Assembly: GCA_021795255.1 (NCBI GenBank)
Contig: JAJYPQ010000301.1
Location: 1 to 5,501, forward strand
Reading direction: 5' to 3'
Source of the DNA: Pseudomonadota bacterium
Lineage (GTDB): Bacteria > Pseudomonadota > Gammaproteobacteria > Acidiferrobacterales > Acidiferrobacteraceae
Length of the DNA: 5,501 bases
How positions within the stretch are numbered: position 1 is the first letter of the stretch; every line of letters begins with the position of its first letter. Of this stretch, positions 2 through 5,475 are shown one piece after another. The notes under the pieces were generated by a model, which saw only the letters and a program-made list of their open reading frames with translations, was not told where the DNA came from and did no database searches. The position numbers were made by a program, and so were the translations under genes.

Positions 2-2446
2 GGCACCATCGTATTCCTATGGCTTTGCACGATGGTCTTTCCGTCGATGACGGCCCCGCTGTTCATGGCTTGTCTTGGCATCTTGATGGGGCGCATGGCC
101 TACACCCTCTGGTATGAGCGTCTGCCCTTGCGCCAGCCGTGGTTTTTGCGAAGACCCGATCCAGGTGATCGTGATCCGGCCGGCAAACACCCACTCTCCC
201 GGGGCGTGATATACGTGGGAAATGAACGCGGGACAGACAAGGAAATCTGGATCTCGAAGCAGGATGCCTTGAACCACATCATGATTTTTGGCGCAACCGG
301 CGCGGGCAAATCCGAGTTTCTCATCTCCATCGTCTTCAATTTCATCGCGGCGGGGAGCGGCACCTTCTACATAGACCCCAAGGCCGCCCTCCAACTCGCG
401 ATCCAGTTTCATGTGATGGCACGCATGTGTCTACGTGACGACGACTTCCGTCTCCTGAACTTCATGACGGCGGGCGATCCGTCCGGTGTCAAGCGGCCCA
501 ACCGCTGGCCGGAGAAGCGCACCAACTGCGTGAACCAGCTCGCGTTCCTGAACGCCGACGACGCGGTGCAGATGATCGAGGCCCTGATGCCCAAGACCGA
601 GGGGCAGAATTCGGTCTTTTCGCAAAACGCGCAGACCCTTCTACGCGGGCTCATGCCACCGCTCGTCTATCTGCGTGACAAGAAGGAAATCGAGATGTCG
701 ATGGAGACGGTTCGGACGTATTTGGCGCGCGACAAGGTTACGGAGCTCTCGCAGCGCAAGGACATTCCCGATCATCTGATTGCCGGGTTGCGCAGTTTCC
801 TGTCGTCAATGGGCTACCAACCGGGACAGCCGCTCGAGAAGCAGGGCAAGGTTTTCAATGAGCAGTATTCTTACGCCGCGAACTATTTCAACATTGCCTT
901 CGCGTCGCTCGTGGACACGTACCGCGCGATCTACGAAACGCCGGCGGGCGACACGGATCTCTTCGATATGATCCGCAACCGTCGCATCGTGCTCGCGCTT
1001 TTACCCTCCCTGCAGAAATCCGCGCAGGAGTGCGAGACCTTGGGCAAGATCAATCTGTCGGCCCTGCGCGCGGCGATCGCCGTGGGTCTTGGGGGCATGC
1101 CCGAGGGCATTATCGATGACACGCTCTATAGCTTGCCGCTTGCGGCAGATTTCCCCTTCCTGTCTGGAACGGATGAATATGCGGCGATCCCCGTACCGGG
1201 GTATGCGGAAGTGGCGACGCAAGGCCGTGGCCTGGGGATCGCCGCAGCGGTCGGTACGCAGGACTATCCAGGCCTCATGAAGGCGGACGAAAAGGGCGGC
1301 GGACAGATCATCGCCAATACGCGGCTGCGCGCCTTTGGGCGTGTCGCCGATGCGCAGACCTTCCAGCTGCTGAAGGAACTGGCCGGGGAGTGGCATGTGG
1401 CACAACAGGCGCAGCTGACACGCGAACAGATGGGCTCCGCGAAAGGCCAAGGAGGGCACCGGATGAACTTCCAGGCGGCGCCGTCGGTCGGGATCAGCAC
1501 GGCGTCACGCGTGGCTCCGATCGATTTGCAGCGCCAGATCGAAGGCGAGTACCACCTGCTGATGGACGGTGCCCTCGTGCGCGCCAAGGTGTTCTATAGC
1601 TCCATCCCCTTGGAGGCGAGTTACGCCATGGAACTCGCGCGCATGGTCACGCCGCACCACCCGGACCGGCGCAAGCTATCGATGAAGTACGGCGCCATCC
1701 GCGAACTCGCCGACCGCCTGGACGAGATCGCGCGCGATAGCGAGGTCTTCCACACCCTGGACCAGGAGATCCGTAAGACCCGGGCGCCGGCGGGCATCAC
1801 CGAGGCCCTGCTGCCACCGTTGCGTCAACCACTCACGGACGGGGCGACCCTGTCGGCGATGGACCGGACCATCGCGGCCTTCGTGTGCTACGCGCAGGCC
1901 CTGGAAGCGCCCCCGAAGGCGCCGCCGGACGACGAACGGCGTGGGGAGCCGCATCACGATGCGCCCGCGCCCGACGCCGGCACGGATTCCGCCGCCGAGG
2001 TACCCATCGGAGAGAGCGGGGCGCCCGCGCCCGTCGCGGCACGCCCGGCGGAGACCGGAACGGCCGGAGATCTCGCGCAATCCGCTCCGGCCATGGCGGC
2101 TGAGACCACGGATCCGGAAAGGGACGGAGAGGTTGATTCTTTAGGCCCAGAGCACGTCGTAAGTCTTGCGGAGTCGGTGTCCCGCGTCACGGCCTACCTC
2201 TTCGGGGAAGAAGGGGATGCGGCCTTGGGATCTGATCTCACACAAATCGAGCAGGCGGCGGGCCGGACGCCCGAGGCGGCCGCGAACGCCTCCCGGCAGG
2301 TCCTGGACGCCGTGCACGCGGATCTTTCGTATCCGGCGGCGGTGACGCCGGCGCCGGAGAAGGGCCGGGACGTCGTCATGGATTCCATCAGTGTCCTGAT
2401 GGCGCGAGCGAGGAAGGCGGGGGAGGGCGATTCTGGCAAGGGTTGA
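2..2446 (+). CDS. DotL/IcmO/TrbC-type type IV coupling ATPase, N-terminus outside window
   Basis: This is an inner-membrane ATPase of the type IV coupling protein superfamily, which delivers relaxase-DNA or protein substrates to a type IV secretion channel. The DotL/IcmO/TrbC branch fits best. Numbering from the in-frame ATG at 32, a Walker A motif GATGAGKS lies at residues 87-94, followed by TFYIDPKAA at 111-119. A Walker B-like DEY sits at 381-383, and QGRGLGIAAAVGTQDYPGL at 397-415 resembles the motif that follows Walker B in this branch. Residues about 626-700 form a Pro/Ala/acid-rich linker, followed by a small C-terminal domain (about 705-804). In DotL the C-terminal extension binds adaptors such as IcmS/IcmW; a similar role here is inferred. 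The ATG at 32 is probably not the true start: the frame is open to position 2, the upstream codons read GTIVFLWLCT and continue the membrane segment, and Walker A would be about 100 residues too early for the family. No other secretion or relaxase gene is visible. Confidence 0.9.
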   Translation, partial: GTIVFLWLCTMVFPSMTAPLFMACLGILMGRMAYTLWYERLPLRQPWFLRRPDPGDRDPAGKHPLSRGVIYVGNERGTDKEIWISKQDALNHIMIFGATGAGKSEFLISIVFNFIAAGSGTFYIDPKAALQLAIQFHVMARMCLRDDDFRLLNFMTAGDPSGVKRPNRWPEKRTNCVNQLAFLNADDAVQMIEALMPKTEGQNSVFSQNAQTLLRGLMPPLVYLRDKKEIEMSMETVRTYLARDKVTELSQRKDIPDHLIAGLRSFLSSMGYQPGQPLEKQGKVFNEQYSYAANYFNIAFASLVDTYRAIYETPAGDTDLFDMIRNRRIVLALLPSLQKSAQECETLGKINLSALRAAIAVGLGGMPEGIIDDTLYSLPLAADFPFLSGTDEYAAIPVPGYAEVATQGRGLGIAAAVGTQDYPGLMKADEKGGGQIIANTRLRAFGRVADAQTFQLLKELAGEWHVAQQAQLTREQMGSAKGQGGHRMNFQAAPSVGISTASRVAPIDLQRQIEGEYHLLMDGALVRAKVFYSSIPLEASYAMELARMVTPHHPDRRKLSMKYGAIRELADRLDEIARDSEVFHTLDQEIRKTRAPAGITEALLPPLRQPLTDGATLSAMDRTIAAFVCYAQALEAPPKAPPDDERRGEPHHDAPAPDAGTDSAAEVPIGESGAPAPVAARPAETGTAGDLAQSAPAMAAETTDPERDGEVDSLGPEHVVSLAESVSRVTAYLFGEEGDAALGSDLTQIEQAAGRTPEAAANASRQVLDAVHADLSYPAAVTPAPEKGRDVVMDSISVLMARARKAGEGDSGKG

Positions 2447-2471: not shown

Positions 2472-2789
2472 TCAAGGCCGCCCATCATCGCCTTCCGCGA
2501 TTGAGTCACGAACCAGCTTCCATCTGGACAGGTCCATGGTATACGGGACGAAGGCGTTCCGGTACGCCAGTTTCTCGAGCGCGATCTCGCCAGACGCGAG
2601 GCGACGGGCGTCCTCGGCCTGCGCCGCCTCTTTCAAAGTGGCAAGATGCGCATGAAGCACCCGGATGGCAAAGTGCGCCTCACCTGCTTCGGGTCCATAA
2701 TACTGAGGTAAGCGTCTTCCTATGCCCACGACGCGATTGTGAAGGCGAAGTGGCTGAGTGACCTTCCTTGCTTCGAGGCAAAAAATCAA
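2472..2789 (-). CDS. Hypothetical protein or gene remnant, uncertain
   Basis: This is the best coding candidate in the otherwise gene-free stretch 2447-2798. The frame encodes up to 105 residues from a TTG at 2789. A GTG at 2729 (about 85 residues) and another at 2660 are alternative starts, and none has a recognisable ribosome binding site. The C-terminal half looks like real protein: an Ala/Glu/Leu-rich helical stretch (LKEAAQAEDARRLASGEIA, residues 52-70) followed by YRNAFVPYTMDLSRW (76-90), with mostly G/C third positions. The N-terminal part has a less biased codon pattern. It converges on the coupling-protein gene (25 bases between the stops), and its longest version would run into the ribosome binding site of tcmP. 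I do not recognise a family. It could be a small accessory gene, the 3' remnant of a larger gene, or a chance open frame. Confidence 0.35.
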   Translation of the reverse strand: MIFCLEARKVTQPLRLHNRVVGIGRRLPQYYGPEAGEAHFAIRVLHAHLATLKEAAQAEDARRLASGEIALEKLAYRNAFVPYTMDLSRWKLVRDSIAEGDDGRP

Positions 2790-2798: not shown

Positions 2799-3626
2799 AT
2801 GGGCAAGCTAGTAAACGGTGACGATGGCCTGCCCGCCGAGGAAGTAGGTATCTGGGCCAAGGAAAAGCACGACTGCCTGTGCCGCTATATCGACATATCG
2901 CGTAAGGCGCGCGCGAAGTATCTGGGTCCTGGGAAGGCGGGTGCGACCTACATTGATCTGTTCTGTGGTCCGGGCCGATGCAAGGTGCGGGACTCAGAGG
3001 AATGGATTGACGGTGGGGCCGTCGCGGCTTGGAAAAAGAGTCAGGAAGGCGGCGCACCATTCTCGCAAGTCTTCATCGGCGACAAAGACACCCAACGGCG
3101 TCAAGCCGCCGCGACCCGCCTGCACAACCTGGGCGCGCCGGTTGTTGAAGTCGACGGCGCCGCAGTCGATGCCGTAAAAACCGTCATCGCCAGGCTCAAC
3201 GCCAACGGCCTGCACTTCGCGTTTCTCGATCCCTTCGATCTGGCGGCGCTGAACTTCGAGATCATCGTTGCCCTGTCAACGCTCAAGCGCATCGACATAC
3301 TGGTTCACATCAGCCAGATGGACTTGCAGCGCAACGTTGTGAGCTACGTGACCACCGACAATTCGCCATTCGATACCTTCGCGCCCGGATGGCGGGAGAA
3401 GGTGCCCATTGTTCAGGGCCATCAGGAACTCCGGCAGCAGATCTTCCACTATTGGCGCGACAAGGTTGCAGCTCTTGGCGTGGGGCCTTCCATTGAGATG
3501 CGCAGGCTCAGGGGCGGCAATAACCAGCCCCTGTACTGGCTACTGCTGGCGGCCAAACACGAACTCGCGCACAAGTTTTGGGCCACGGCCTCCAACGTCG
3601 AAGGACAGGGCAAGCTGGATTTCTAG
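2799..3626 (+). CDS. tcmP: Three-Cys-motif partner protein TcmP
   Basis: This 275-residue protein belongs to the TcmP family, defined by its regular occurrence beside a three-cysteine-motif protein. That partner is present here, on the opposite strand. Visible features are WAKEKHDCLCRYI at residues 19-31, YIDLFCGPG at 51-59, an acidic loop IGDKD at 93-97, FLDPFD at 142-147 and a C-terminal NNQPLYWLLLAAKHELAHKFW region (241-261). DLFCGPG resembles the glycine-rich SAM-binding motif I of class I methyltransferases, with GDKD where motif II would be expected and LDPF where the catalytic-side motif IV would be. A Rossmann-fold methyltransferase-like domain is therefore inferred; activity and substrate are unknown. 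The start at 2799 is chosen for its strong ribosome binding site. The gene converges on the DUF5131 gene and overlaps it by 4 bases at the stop codons. No clear promoter was recognised in the upstream gap. Family assignment is fairly sure; function is open. Confidence 0.85.
   Translation: MGKLVNGDDGLPAEEVGIWAKEKHDCLCRYIDISRKARAKYLGPGKAGATYIDLFCGPGRCKVRDSEEWIDGGAVAAWKKSQEGGAPFSQVFIGDKDTQRRQAAATRLHNLGAPVVEVDGAAVDAVKTVIARLNANGLHFAFLDPFDLAALNFEIIVALSTLKRIDILVHISQMDLQRNVVSYVTTDNSPFDTFAPGWREKVPIVQGHQELRQQIFHYWRDKVAALGVGPSIEMRRLRGGNNQPLYWLLLAAKHELAHKFWATASNVEGQGKLDF
3623..3626. other. Shared palindromic stop of two convergent genes
   Basis: The four bases CTAG contain TAG on both strands. The plus-strand copy (3624-3626) stops tcmP, and the minus-strand copy (3625-3623) stops the DUF5131 gene. 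The genes therefore meet tail to tail with a 4-base overlap and no room between them for an intrinsic terminator. Each transcript must run into the antisense of its partner unless it ends inside it. Confidence 0.85.
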
Positions 3627-4369
3627 GGGTGCGCTACGACTGCCGGATAGTCGTCCCAGGTACGACCCTGGAAGACACGCCCATTCGCTTTCTTGTGACG
3701 CTTGACGCCGTCGGCCCCCCATCCACCCCACTGCTTGAAGAAGAACGCCGCGCGAGCAGCCTCGGCTTGCACCTGCACGTTCGCGACCCACTTCTCGCGC
3801 ATGGGCCGTGCCTTGGGCCCTGACTCGCCACCAATGATCACCCAGTGGATGTCGCGTAGATTGATGCGACCCAGGTCTTCAAGGAGAGGCTCGACGGAGA
3901 GAAAGCGAATATGTGCATCCACCTTGCGCAAGTGATCGATACGCGGTACGCCGTACTTCTTGTCCTCAACGGATACGCCCAGCCACACGTTCTGTGGGCA
4001 AGCACGGCGCGCGAAATACTCGGGCAGTCGTTCGGAGCGCTTGGTGAGGATTTGATATGTGTGATGCGGCGTGGCCTCGATGATAGAGAATACGCGATCC
4101 AGGTACGCGTCCGGCACGTCTTCGTGAAACAGGTCGCTCATGCTGTTCACGAAGTACACGGTCGGCTTCTTTCGCGCCAATGGTTGCTGAAGCCGGTTTT
4201 CGTGCAAGGTCAGCGTGAACTCGTTCTCGTAGCCGGACGCACCCATCGCGTGAAGCCGTCGGGCCATCACCTCAGCGTAGCAGTGCTTGCAGCCGGGCGA
4301 AACCTTGGTGCATCCGGTGGTCGGGTTCCATGTCTGTTCCGTCCATTCGATGGTGGATTGTGTCGCCAT
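3623..4369 (-). CDS. DUF5131 / phage Gp37-Gp68 family three-Cys-motif protein
   Basis: This 248-residue protein is a clear full-length member of the phage Gp37/Gp68 (DUF5131) family. The N-terminus carries IEWTEQTWNPTTGC and then the three cysteines C20, C27 and C30 (C-x6-C-x2-C, within CTKVSPGCKHCYAE). The pattern recalls the iron-sulfur cluster motif of radical SAM enzymes but with different spacing, so cluster binding is an inference. Other conserved-looking blocks are FVNSMSDLFHEDVP (73-86), YQILTKRSERL (105-115), NVWLGVSVED (127-136), FLSVEPLLEDLG (156-167), WVIIGGESG (176-184) and FFFKQWGGWG (209-218). The protein is likely cytoplasmic; no signal peptide or membrane segment is seen. The start is set by AGGAGG at 4374-4379. 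It lies downstream of the AbiEii-like gene on the same strand, 92 bases away, so co-transcription is possible. Its presence beside tcmP matches the known association of the two families. Biochemical function is unknown. Confidence 0.92.
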   Translation of the reverse strand: MATQSTIEWTEQTWNPTTGCTKVSPGCKHCYAEVMARRLHAMGASGYENEFTLTLHENRLQQPLARKKPTVYFVNSMSDLFHEDVPDAYLDRVFSIIEATPHHTYQILTKRSERLPEYFARRACPQNVWLGVSVEDKKYGVPRIDHLRKVDAHIRFLSVEPLLEDLGRINLRDIHWVIIGGESGPKARPMREKWVANVQVQAEAARAAFFFKQWGGWGADGVKRHKKANGRVFQGRTWDDYPAVVAHP

Positions 4370-4461: not shown

Positions 4462-5475
4462 TTAGGGATATGGGGTAACGTCTCCTTCAGACGAGAAATC
4501 CGGATTTTCATCAAGGCTATCAAGAGACAGTTGAATAACAGCCCGGAAAGTGCGAATCACGTCTGTGAACGTCGGCGTTTCTGCGTATACCATGTCGCGC
4601 ACGAAAAGCTCGTAGCGATCCCGCGTCACAGCGTCATCCAGGTGCTCAATTTCGTTCTGTAGAACTTCCTTGGCATTGTCCCTGAAAGCCGGAAATTGGT
4701 TACCATACGAAGTCTGATCCCGCGACACGACATGGGGAAATAGTACCCCGAGTCTGGTGATTACGTCGGGCCGCTTAGTGACGATCTGATGGACGTCGTA
4801 GAGGTGGCGAACCAATCGGTCGTCATAGATGCCGGGGCCGCAACCGGCCCGATGAGCTGCGGTACGGCGCAGATAAGACACGAGCTTGTCGGCCAGTGTA
4901 TCCTGTATACTGACGACCGGAACCCGTGGGTGCTCGGCTCCTGGCGCTCTGCCCGCGACTTTGTCGAGGATGCTTTGCAAGGGACGCTCCGCGATTTCGC
5001 TCGCGGGATCGAAGGCTGTGATTTCGATCTTGATGGTTGGGCGCAAGGCCGCGTCCAGCGGGAAACGAGATGCATATCGAAAGTAGCCCGTGATGTAGCC
5101 GTTATTGTTGCGCGCCTGCAGATTGCCGTCTGGCAAGTAGCCGTTTCCTTCAAGGGCCACGAGTACGTCTTGCTTGAGCGAAGAAAGGAGCCGCCGTTGC
5201 CGGCTTGTATTCAGTCCATCGGGCAGCACGATGCGAAAGTCAGCATCCTCCGACATGCGTCCGATCAGATTCCACGCTTGGGATAAAGCGGTGCCACCGC
5301 AAAAGATCATGCGGGCGCCGTGCGCACGGCCTACGCCGCAGATATGATGCACCAGCTTGGTAACAAGGAGATCCTTCTCGATGAAACAGGGTTGTAATGG
5401 TAACCGGCCAAGGCGCTGAAAGAGAGCAATTTCCTCAACCTGCGCACTGGATAGCGCGGCCTCGGTCATACTCAT
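4462..5475 (-). CDS. AbiEii/AbiGii-family nucleotidyltransferase toxin
   Basis: This 337-residue protein fits the AbiEii/AbiGii toxin family, nucleotidyltransferases of the DNA polymerase beta-like fold that act with an AbiEi-type antitoxin in abortive infection and plasmid or island stabilisation. Residues 33-42 (EKDLLVTKLV) match the usual lead-in. The nucleotidyltransferase core is FCGGTALSQAW (58-68) followed by MSEDADFRIV (74-83), where D77 and D79 are the likely metal ligands. IKIEITAF (148-155) supplies a third acidic position (E151). VSIQDTLADKLVSYL (188-202, with K197) and RHLYDVHQI (223-231, with D227) match the family's later motifs. The C-terminal part (about 240-337) is mostly helical in composition with an acidic tail. 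All catalytic-type residues appear intact. The ATG at 5475 is preferred over the ATG at 5469 because AAAGGA lies nine bases before it. Its ATGA also overlaps the end of a frame entering from the right, as expected for an antitoxin-toxin operon. Confidence 0.88.
   Translation of the reverse strand: MSMTEAALSSAQVEEIALFQRLGRLPLQPCFIEKDLLVTKLVHHICGVGRAHGARMIFCGGTALSQAWNLIGRMSEDADFRIVLPDGLNTSRQRRLLSSLKQDVLVALEGNGYLPDGNLQARNNNGYITGYFRYASRFPLDAALRPTIKIEITAFDPASEIAERPLQSILDKVAGRAPGAEHPRVPVVSIQDTLADKLVSYLRRTAAHRAGCGPGIYDDRLVRHLYDVHQIVTKRPDVITRLGVLFPHVVSRDQTSYGNQFPAFRDNAKEVLQNEIEHLDDAVTRDRYELFVRDMVYAETPTFTDVIRTFRAVIQLSLDSLDENPDFSSEGDVTPYP

Follow-up and report, generated by a model that had tools for sequence, protein, structure and literature searches.

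The window, a 5,501-nucleotide stretch of DNA from a bacterium of the Acidiferrobacteraceae (Pseudomonadota), carries two neighbouring genes, TcmP and DUF5131, and raises the question of what this pair does. The Pfam label for DUF5131 is that of a protein of unknown function, and a literature search found no functional study of either family, the term TcmP mostly matching unrelated acronyms. From a sequence-only reading of the window, it was postulated that a methyltransferase-like protein is paired here with a radical-SAM-like protein in a nucleic-acid-modifying or defence module.

The locus and its neighbours

Both genes of the pair are intact (Table 1), as the sequence-only reading had stated, and profile matches identify the AbiE-type toxin gene and the conjugation gene that it had placed beside them.

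Table 1. Features of the window
Feature	Position	Strand	Remarks
TraD/TrbC-like conjugative coupling ATPase	32..2446	+	PF12696 25.6 bits (cut-off 22)
105-aa ORF, TTG start, between ATPase and TcmP	2472..2789	-	Family: none matched
TcmP	2799..3626	+	275 aa; class I SAM-dependent methyltransferase fold predicted
CTAG tail-to-tail overlap, 4 bases	3623..3626		Both stop codons inside
DUF5131 (phage Gp37/Gp68 family)	3623..4369	-	248 aa; radical-SAM-type barrel predicted
AbiEii-type nucleotidyltransferase	4462..5475	-	PF08843 100.3 bits

The AbiEii-type gene shares its strand with DUF5131 and lies upstream of it, across a gap of 92 bases. The usual partner of AbiEii is AbiEi; no such partner was found within the window, and it could sit past the window's end. 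The coupling ATPase, which also reaches 248.7 bits with NF041447 (under the cut-off of 800), suggests a conjugative element. The 105-aa ORF has no tblastn relative in the fetched loci and may not be a real gene, and the window gave no match to Rfam.

Pairing and gene geometry

That the two families co-occur was confirmed in a sample of 398 Pseudomonadota genomes, sampled evenly across the phylum to which G001 belongs (Cupriavidus gilardii, the genome behind locus L008). PF07505, the DUF5131 profile, exceeds its cut-off in 40 of these genomes, and TIGR04474, the TcmP profile, in 24. DUF5131 lies within 2 kb of every one of the 27 TcmP places over cut-off, and 24 of the 48 DUF5131 places over cut-off have TcmP; this co-occurrence is far beyond chance. 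The window proteins, adjacent to each other, both exceed the curated cut-offs, TcmP with 165.8 bits (cut-off 53) and DUF5131 with 361.7 bits (gathering score 28.9). A related profile, TIGR04471 (radical SAM mobile pair protein A), reaches 92.9 bits, far under its cut-off of 355.

The window pair meets tail to tail, its genes overlapping by 4 bases; of the 27 sampled pairs, 9 are likewise convergent and 18 are co-directional. The fetched loci in which the genes lie within 400 bases of each other amount to 144 pairs, counting the window and many close relatives. Of these, 68 are convergent, 40 run from DUF5131 to TcmP, 36 run from TcmP to DUF5131, and none is divergent. The exact 4-base overlap occurs in 46 of the 68 convergent pairs, window included, and recurs with the long form of TcmP in Rhodococcus, Nocardioides, Streptomyces and a Gordonia phage. 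It was considered whether the CTAG of the overlap is itself a sequence signal, and this idea was discarded: all four legal tetranucleotides occur (CTAG 19, TTAA 13, CTAA 11, TTAG 3), and consequently it is the geometry rather than the letters that is kept. Mapped onto a 164-leaf DUF5131 tree, the arrangement shows 22 changes, compared with a mean of 82 when the labels are shuffled; thus, the geometry is inherited, though it has changed repeatedly. Some loci depart from the simple pair. Three (L003:3663-6798, L004 and L005) have one DUF5131 together with two different TcmP genes, a long form of about 420 aa and a short form. In Luteimonas (L018:8766-9905) and Thermomonas (L021:8610-9752), TcmP and DUF5131 are separated by a protein of about 380 aa, which in L018 matches nothing in Pfam or PADLOC.

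TcmP as a predicted methyltransferase

The methyltransferase-like motifs that had been noticed in TcmP were all located, DLFCGPG at residues 53-59, GDKD at 94-97 and LDPFD at 143-147. They provide motif I (D53-L-F-C-G-P-G), D95 after strand 2, and motif IV (D144-P145-F), which across TcmP sequences reads DPF, DPY or DQY. The predicted structure (pLDDT 92) has the SAM-type fold on which the sequence-only reading depended; it is that of a class I methyltransferase, and the model thus supports a SAM-methyltransferase fold for TcmP. Searches at E 0.01 found no Pfam match for TcmP, including none to the RlmJ family PF04378, and neither single-sequence nor profile searches of PDB sequences found a credible relative. 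The best 120 of 1487 TcmP relatives range from 98% identity downward, and the few of these 120 with an organism name are beta- or gammaproteobacterial.

Near the top of the fold matches are Trm1 and RlmJ, which share the class I fold with TcmP. This has led to one alternative, in which TcmP is an RNA methyltransferase like RlmJ or Trm1, and DUF5131 is a radical SAM enzyme that modifies RNA. The TIGR04474 profile does catch RlmJ-like ORFs under its cut-off, one of which (L188) belongs to PF04378. Furthermore, an hhalign comparison of TcmP with 11 RlmJ-like ORFs scores 26.75 (E 0.0066), over the best of 100 shuffles (23.95), and a profile alignment with 12 ORFs, at least three of them wrong-strand, finds in TcmP the KH residues that precede motif I in RlmJ. 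However, TcmP differs from these enzymes in motif IV, which in the window is DPFD and in 4 of the 11 RlmJ-like ORFs is DPPY. This argument is weak because the other 7 also lack DPP[YFW]. In addition, the fold nearest to that of DUF5131 belongs to a DNA enzyme. We consider RNA modification very improbable.

DUF5131 as a predicted radical SAM protein

The cysteine cluster that had been described in DUF5131 as akin to the radical SAM motif, yet not matching it, consists of Cys20, Cys27 and Cys30, followed by Y31; it is thus CX6CX2C instead of the canonical CX3CX2C. Its conservation is in keeping with such a cluster. Within the first 60 residues, CX6CX2C is present in 161 of 166 DUF5131 sequences and CX3CX2C in none of the 166, so that the three-Cys motif is almost invariant. 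Wider spacings have been seen in single copies: in L039:3413 and L052:7079, the first gap has grown to about 12 residues with CxxCY kept, and in L157:5977, the second gap has grown to about 8. The family is a large one, with at least 8000 matches, as well as 405 plasmid records and 161 phage records.

The predicted model of DUF5131 (pLDDT 92) is a radical-SAM barrel whose nearest solved fold is spore photoproduct lyase (SplB), and a radical-SAM fold is supported on this basis. Like DUF5131, SplB has a Tyr after the third cluster Cys, but its cluster is C-x3-C-x2-C, and the place of its hydrogen-donor cysteine (Cys141 in B. subtilis) is apparently taken by Ser76 in a by-eye alignment that carries no statistical support. 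Sequence homology between the two could not be detected and was discarded as an argument: at E 0.01, Pfam gives DUF5131 neither a radical SAM nor an SPL (PF20903) match, and a profile-profile comparison with SPL-family sequences gives E 0.1, which is not significant, shuffled columns scoring equally high. Consequently, the link between DUF5131 and SPL is one of fold only. Searches of PDB sequences with the single sequence or a profile likewise gave no credible relative.

Carriage on mobile elements

The pair has been found on conjugative plasmids, in phages, and at prophage ends. Among the window's nearest relatives, an XRE-type regulator often stands behind DUF5131 (a cluster in 16 loci), and several adjoin phage lysozyme and tail genes. 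One pair (L205) lies on a conjugative Pseudomonas aeruginosa plasmid, where it adjoins a site-specific integrase; annotated genes for resistance to aminoglycosides and beta-lactams lie a few kilobases away.

Neighbours within 10 kb of DUF5131, chosen by eye from match lists, include an S24 peptidase in 6 places compared with 0.67 expected, and an integrase in at least 6 places compared with 1.64 expected. All of these places lack TcmP, and the enrichment was therefore discarded as support for the pair, for which the evidence of mobility comes from its occurrences in plasmids, phages and prophages. The enrichment instead marks solo DUF5131 in prophages or islands, and the solo places near S24 genes (G121, G275, G291, G147, G299 and G327) suggest prophage carriage.

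Is the pair a defence module?

Given its neighbours, the pair might be an anti-phage module within a defence island, both enzymes acting on invading nucleic acid, by modification or damage, or else marking self. Two PADLOC candidates, PDC-M30 and PDC-M41, have DUF5131 as their B protein (376.3 and 372.7 bits with the window's protein), PDC standing for phage defence candidate (PMC11514479, excerpt). In contrast, the A proteins are matched by the window's TcmP at 27.7 bits for PDC-M41A, which is weak, and 15.3 bits for PDC-M30A. A DUF1156 methylase cluster adjoins the pair in 10 of the loci fetched from the window's clade; of the representatives tested, that of L018 matches HmaB and HmaC, and that of L011 matches HmaA. 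Hma is a candidate system named by the authors of PADLOC (PMC8565338, excerpt). Its association with the pair was seen in one clade only.

In L008 (4538-6820), genes for a TIR protein, a 2TM effector and a SMODS nucleotidyltransferase also follow one another directly before TcmP; the row resembles a CBASS-type operon and has Hma-type genes next to it where a prophage ends. Other cases are scattered. McrC and an N-6 methylase adjoin the Nocardioides pair, the SMa2243 TcmP of S. meliloti is listed together with hna (PMC12445080, excerpt), and the window itself has AbiEii.

An unbiased set of neighbours does not extend this pattern. It was taken from 40 of the 48 DUF5131 places (loci L128-L167), 16 of which lack TcmP, by naive gene calling. 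Two lists of 150 proteins were scanned less their 3 and 4 longest members, leaving 147 neighbours and 146 controls from the same genomes. PADLOC enrichment next to DUF5131 was not observed, with 32 families among the 147 neighbour proteins and 33 among the 146 controls; Pfam families were fewer in the neighbours (93 compared with 145). Thus, the link to defence is a trait of the window's clade and of scattered cases, and did not emerge for the family in this set; the literature search brought up no paper in which the pair was tested with phage. The earlier proposal of a nucleic-acid-modifying or defence module therefore stands in part. The methyltransferase and radical-SAM folds, the mobile settings and the Hma-type genes of the window's clade are in its favour, but the defence enrichment that would extend it to the family did not appear in the unbiased sample. 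A defence role is, in our judgement, unlikely.

LexA boxes before some copies of the pair

Some copies have SOS genes as neighbours: ImuA, a Y-family polymerase and DnaE2; a SRAP-type cluster, near the pair in 5 loci, of which 3 are from Bradyrhizobium (a single representative was tested); and, in one locus, an S24 peptidase that overlaps DUF5131. Consequently, a scan for LexA boxes was made. Enrichment of Y-family polymerases near DUF5131 was not found (1 observed, 0.33 expected).

CTGT-N8-ACAG is the LexA motif of beta- and gammaproteobacteria. GTTC-N7-GTTC is an alphaproteobacterial LexA motif (PMC8565304, excerpt). With similar promoters collapsed, the window included, and both genes of convergent loci counted as first, the beta/gamma motif precedes the first gene in 7 of 187 cases compared with 11 of 1616 other genes (P 0.0014), and the alpha motif does so in 12 of 187 compared with 26 of 1616 (P 2.6e-4). 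Neither precedes any of 76 second genes. Two further patterns were tried and rejected, the Xanthomonad type (0/187 compared with 1/1616) and the Gram-positive type (3/187 compared with 19/1616); an actinobacterial-type box was present in 1 of 10 actinobacterial loci, two of which are phages. When tetramer repeats were scanned without a preset pattern, the alpha motif came out first of 299 (P 1.8e-4, uncorrected), with the beta/gamma motif 11th; since nine other patterns rank between them, this result is not conclusive alone.

Stronger evidence is the match of box type to host class. The alpha-type box occurs in 7 of 27 alphaproteobacterial and 0 of 51 beta/gamma loci, and the beta/gamma-type box in 8 of 51 beta/gamma and 0 of 27 alphaproteobacterial loci (Fisher 1.6e-4), the class being taken from record title or taxonomy after 7 Proteobacteria MAGs, other phyla, and viral and unnamed-genome loci were dropped. 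Five of the 8 beta/gamma box loci form one Burkholderiaceae group; when this group is collapsed, as well as L039 with L052, 6 and 4 box loci remain, for which a hand calculation gives a probability of 1/210. Furthermore, boxes are found in 6 of 47 promoters (6 of 39 loci) in the unbiased set compared with 3 of 224 control promoters, and all 6 are in the 23 loci with TcmP (6/23), compared with 0 of 16 without it; these 23 were called by our own profiles, and include L141, which is under the TIGR04474 cut-off.

Only a minority of loci have a LexA box, and the window's own promoters have none. Its GTTC-N7-GTTC at 4325, within DUF5131, and its CTGT-N8-ACAG with one mismatch at 3992 both lie inside coding sequence, and the scan found no box in the window's nearest relatives.

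These boxes fit a DNA-damage response at least as well as they fit defence. They could instead reflect induction of a prophage or other element rather than repair. In a further hypothesis, mobile elements would use the pair to alter the bases of their own DNA and so evade host restriction, turning it on at their own induction. Control by LexA would suit the induction of a prophage, the pair is carried by conjugative plasmids, phages and prophage ends, and in one phage DUF5131 is near a DNA methyltransferase. However, some pairs are in chromosomal loci with no mobile element visible in the stretch fetched. Furthermore, a search of 50,697 phage records with the short-form TcmP gave nothing at E 1e-5, although long-form copies are present in phages (L120, L206). 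Such self-modification strikes us as quite improbable.

A model for the pair

The pairing, the predicted folds and the conserved residues are well supported, and a shared role of the two proteins in nucleic-acid chemistry is likely. Our preferred reading, held tentatively and with somewhat less than even confidence, is that of a mobile, in places SOS-controlled pair for nucleic-acid repair or base remodelling. DUF5131 and TcmP would then be a mobile two-enzyme module working on nucleic-acid bases. In this model, C20, C27 and C30 of DUF5131 most likely hold a [4Fe-4S] cluster, and the enzyme would split SAM to give a 5'-deoxyadenosyl radical. By analogy with spore photoproduct lyase, the radical might be used on a damaged or modified base, and TcmP would methylate, or bind, a base in what may be the same substrate. 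In several lineages, the LexA boxes suggest that the module is probably made upon DNA damage, and the window's copy, which has no box, presumably has the same role. An SOS link would be common to the pair and SplB, a radical SAM protein that is SOS-regulated in several species (PMC8565304, excerpt); SplB-like photolyases are likewise linked to SOS (PMC3765255, excerpt).

Because the boxes suggest that the module is probably made upon damage, lesion repair or damage tolerance is favoured over infection-specific defence, so that SOS-linked repair is ranked first, itself with less than even confidence, and defence second. A bolder version, which we regard as unlikely, is that the pair constitutes a new mobile system for direct-reversal repair or base remodelling, in which a radical SAM enzyme whose cluster motif is widened to CX6CX2C and a methyltransferase never seen alone would be made under SOS control to act on a lesion or phage base modification beyond the reach of known enzymes.

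For DUF5131, a very common family, the predicted fold, the cysteine motif, a partner not seen apart from it in the 398-genome sample and a testable regulatory link together turn an uncharacterized protein into a concrete biochemical question. Mobile elements carry umuDC-type genes; if the SOS link is true, they would carry a radical-based nucleic-acid repair system as well.
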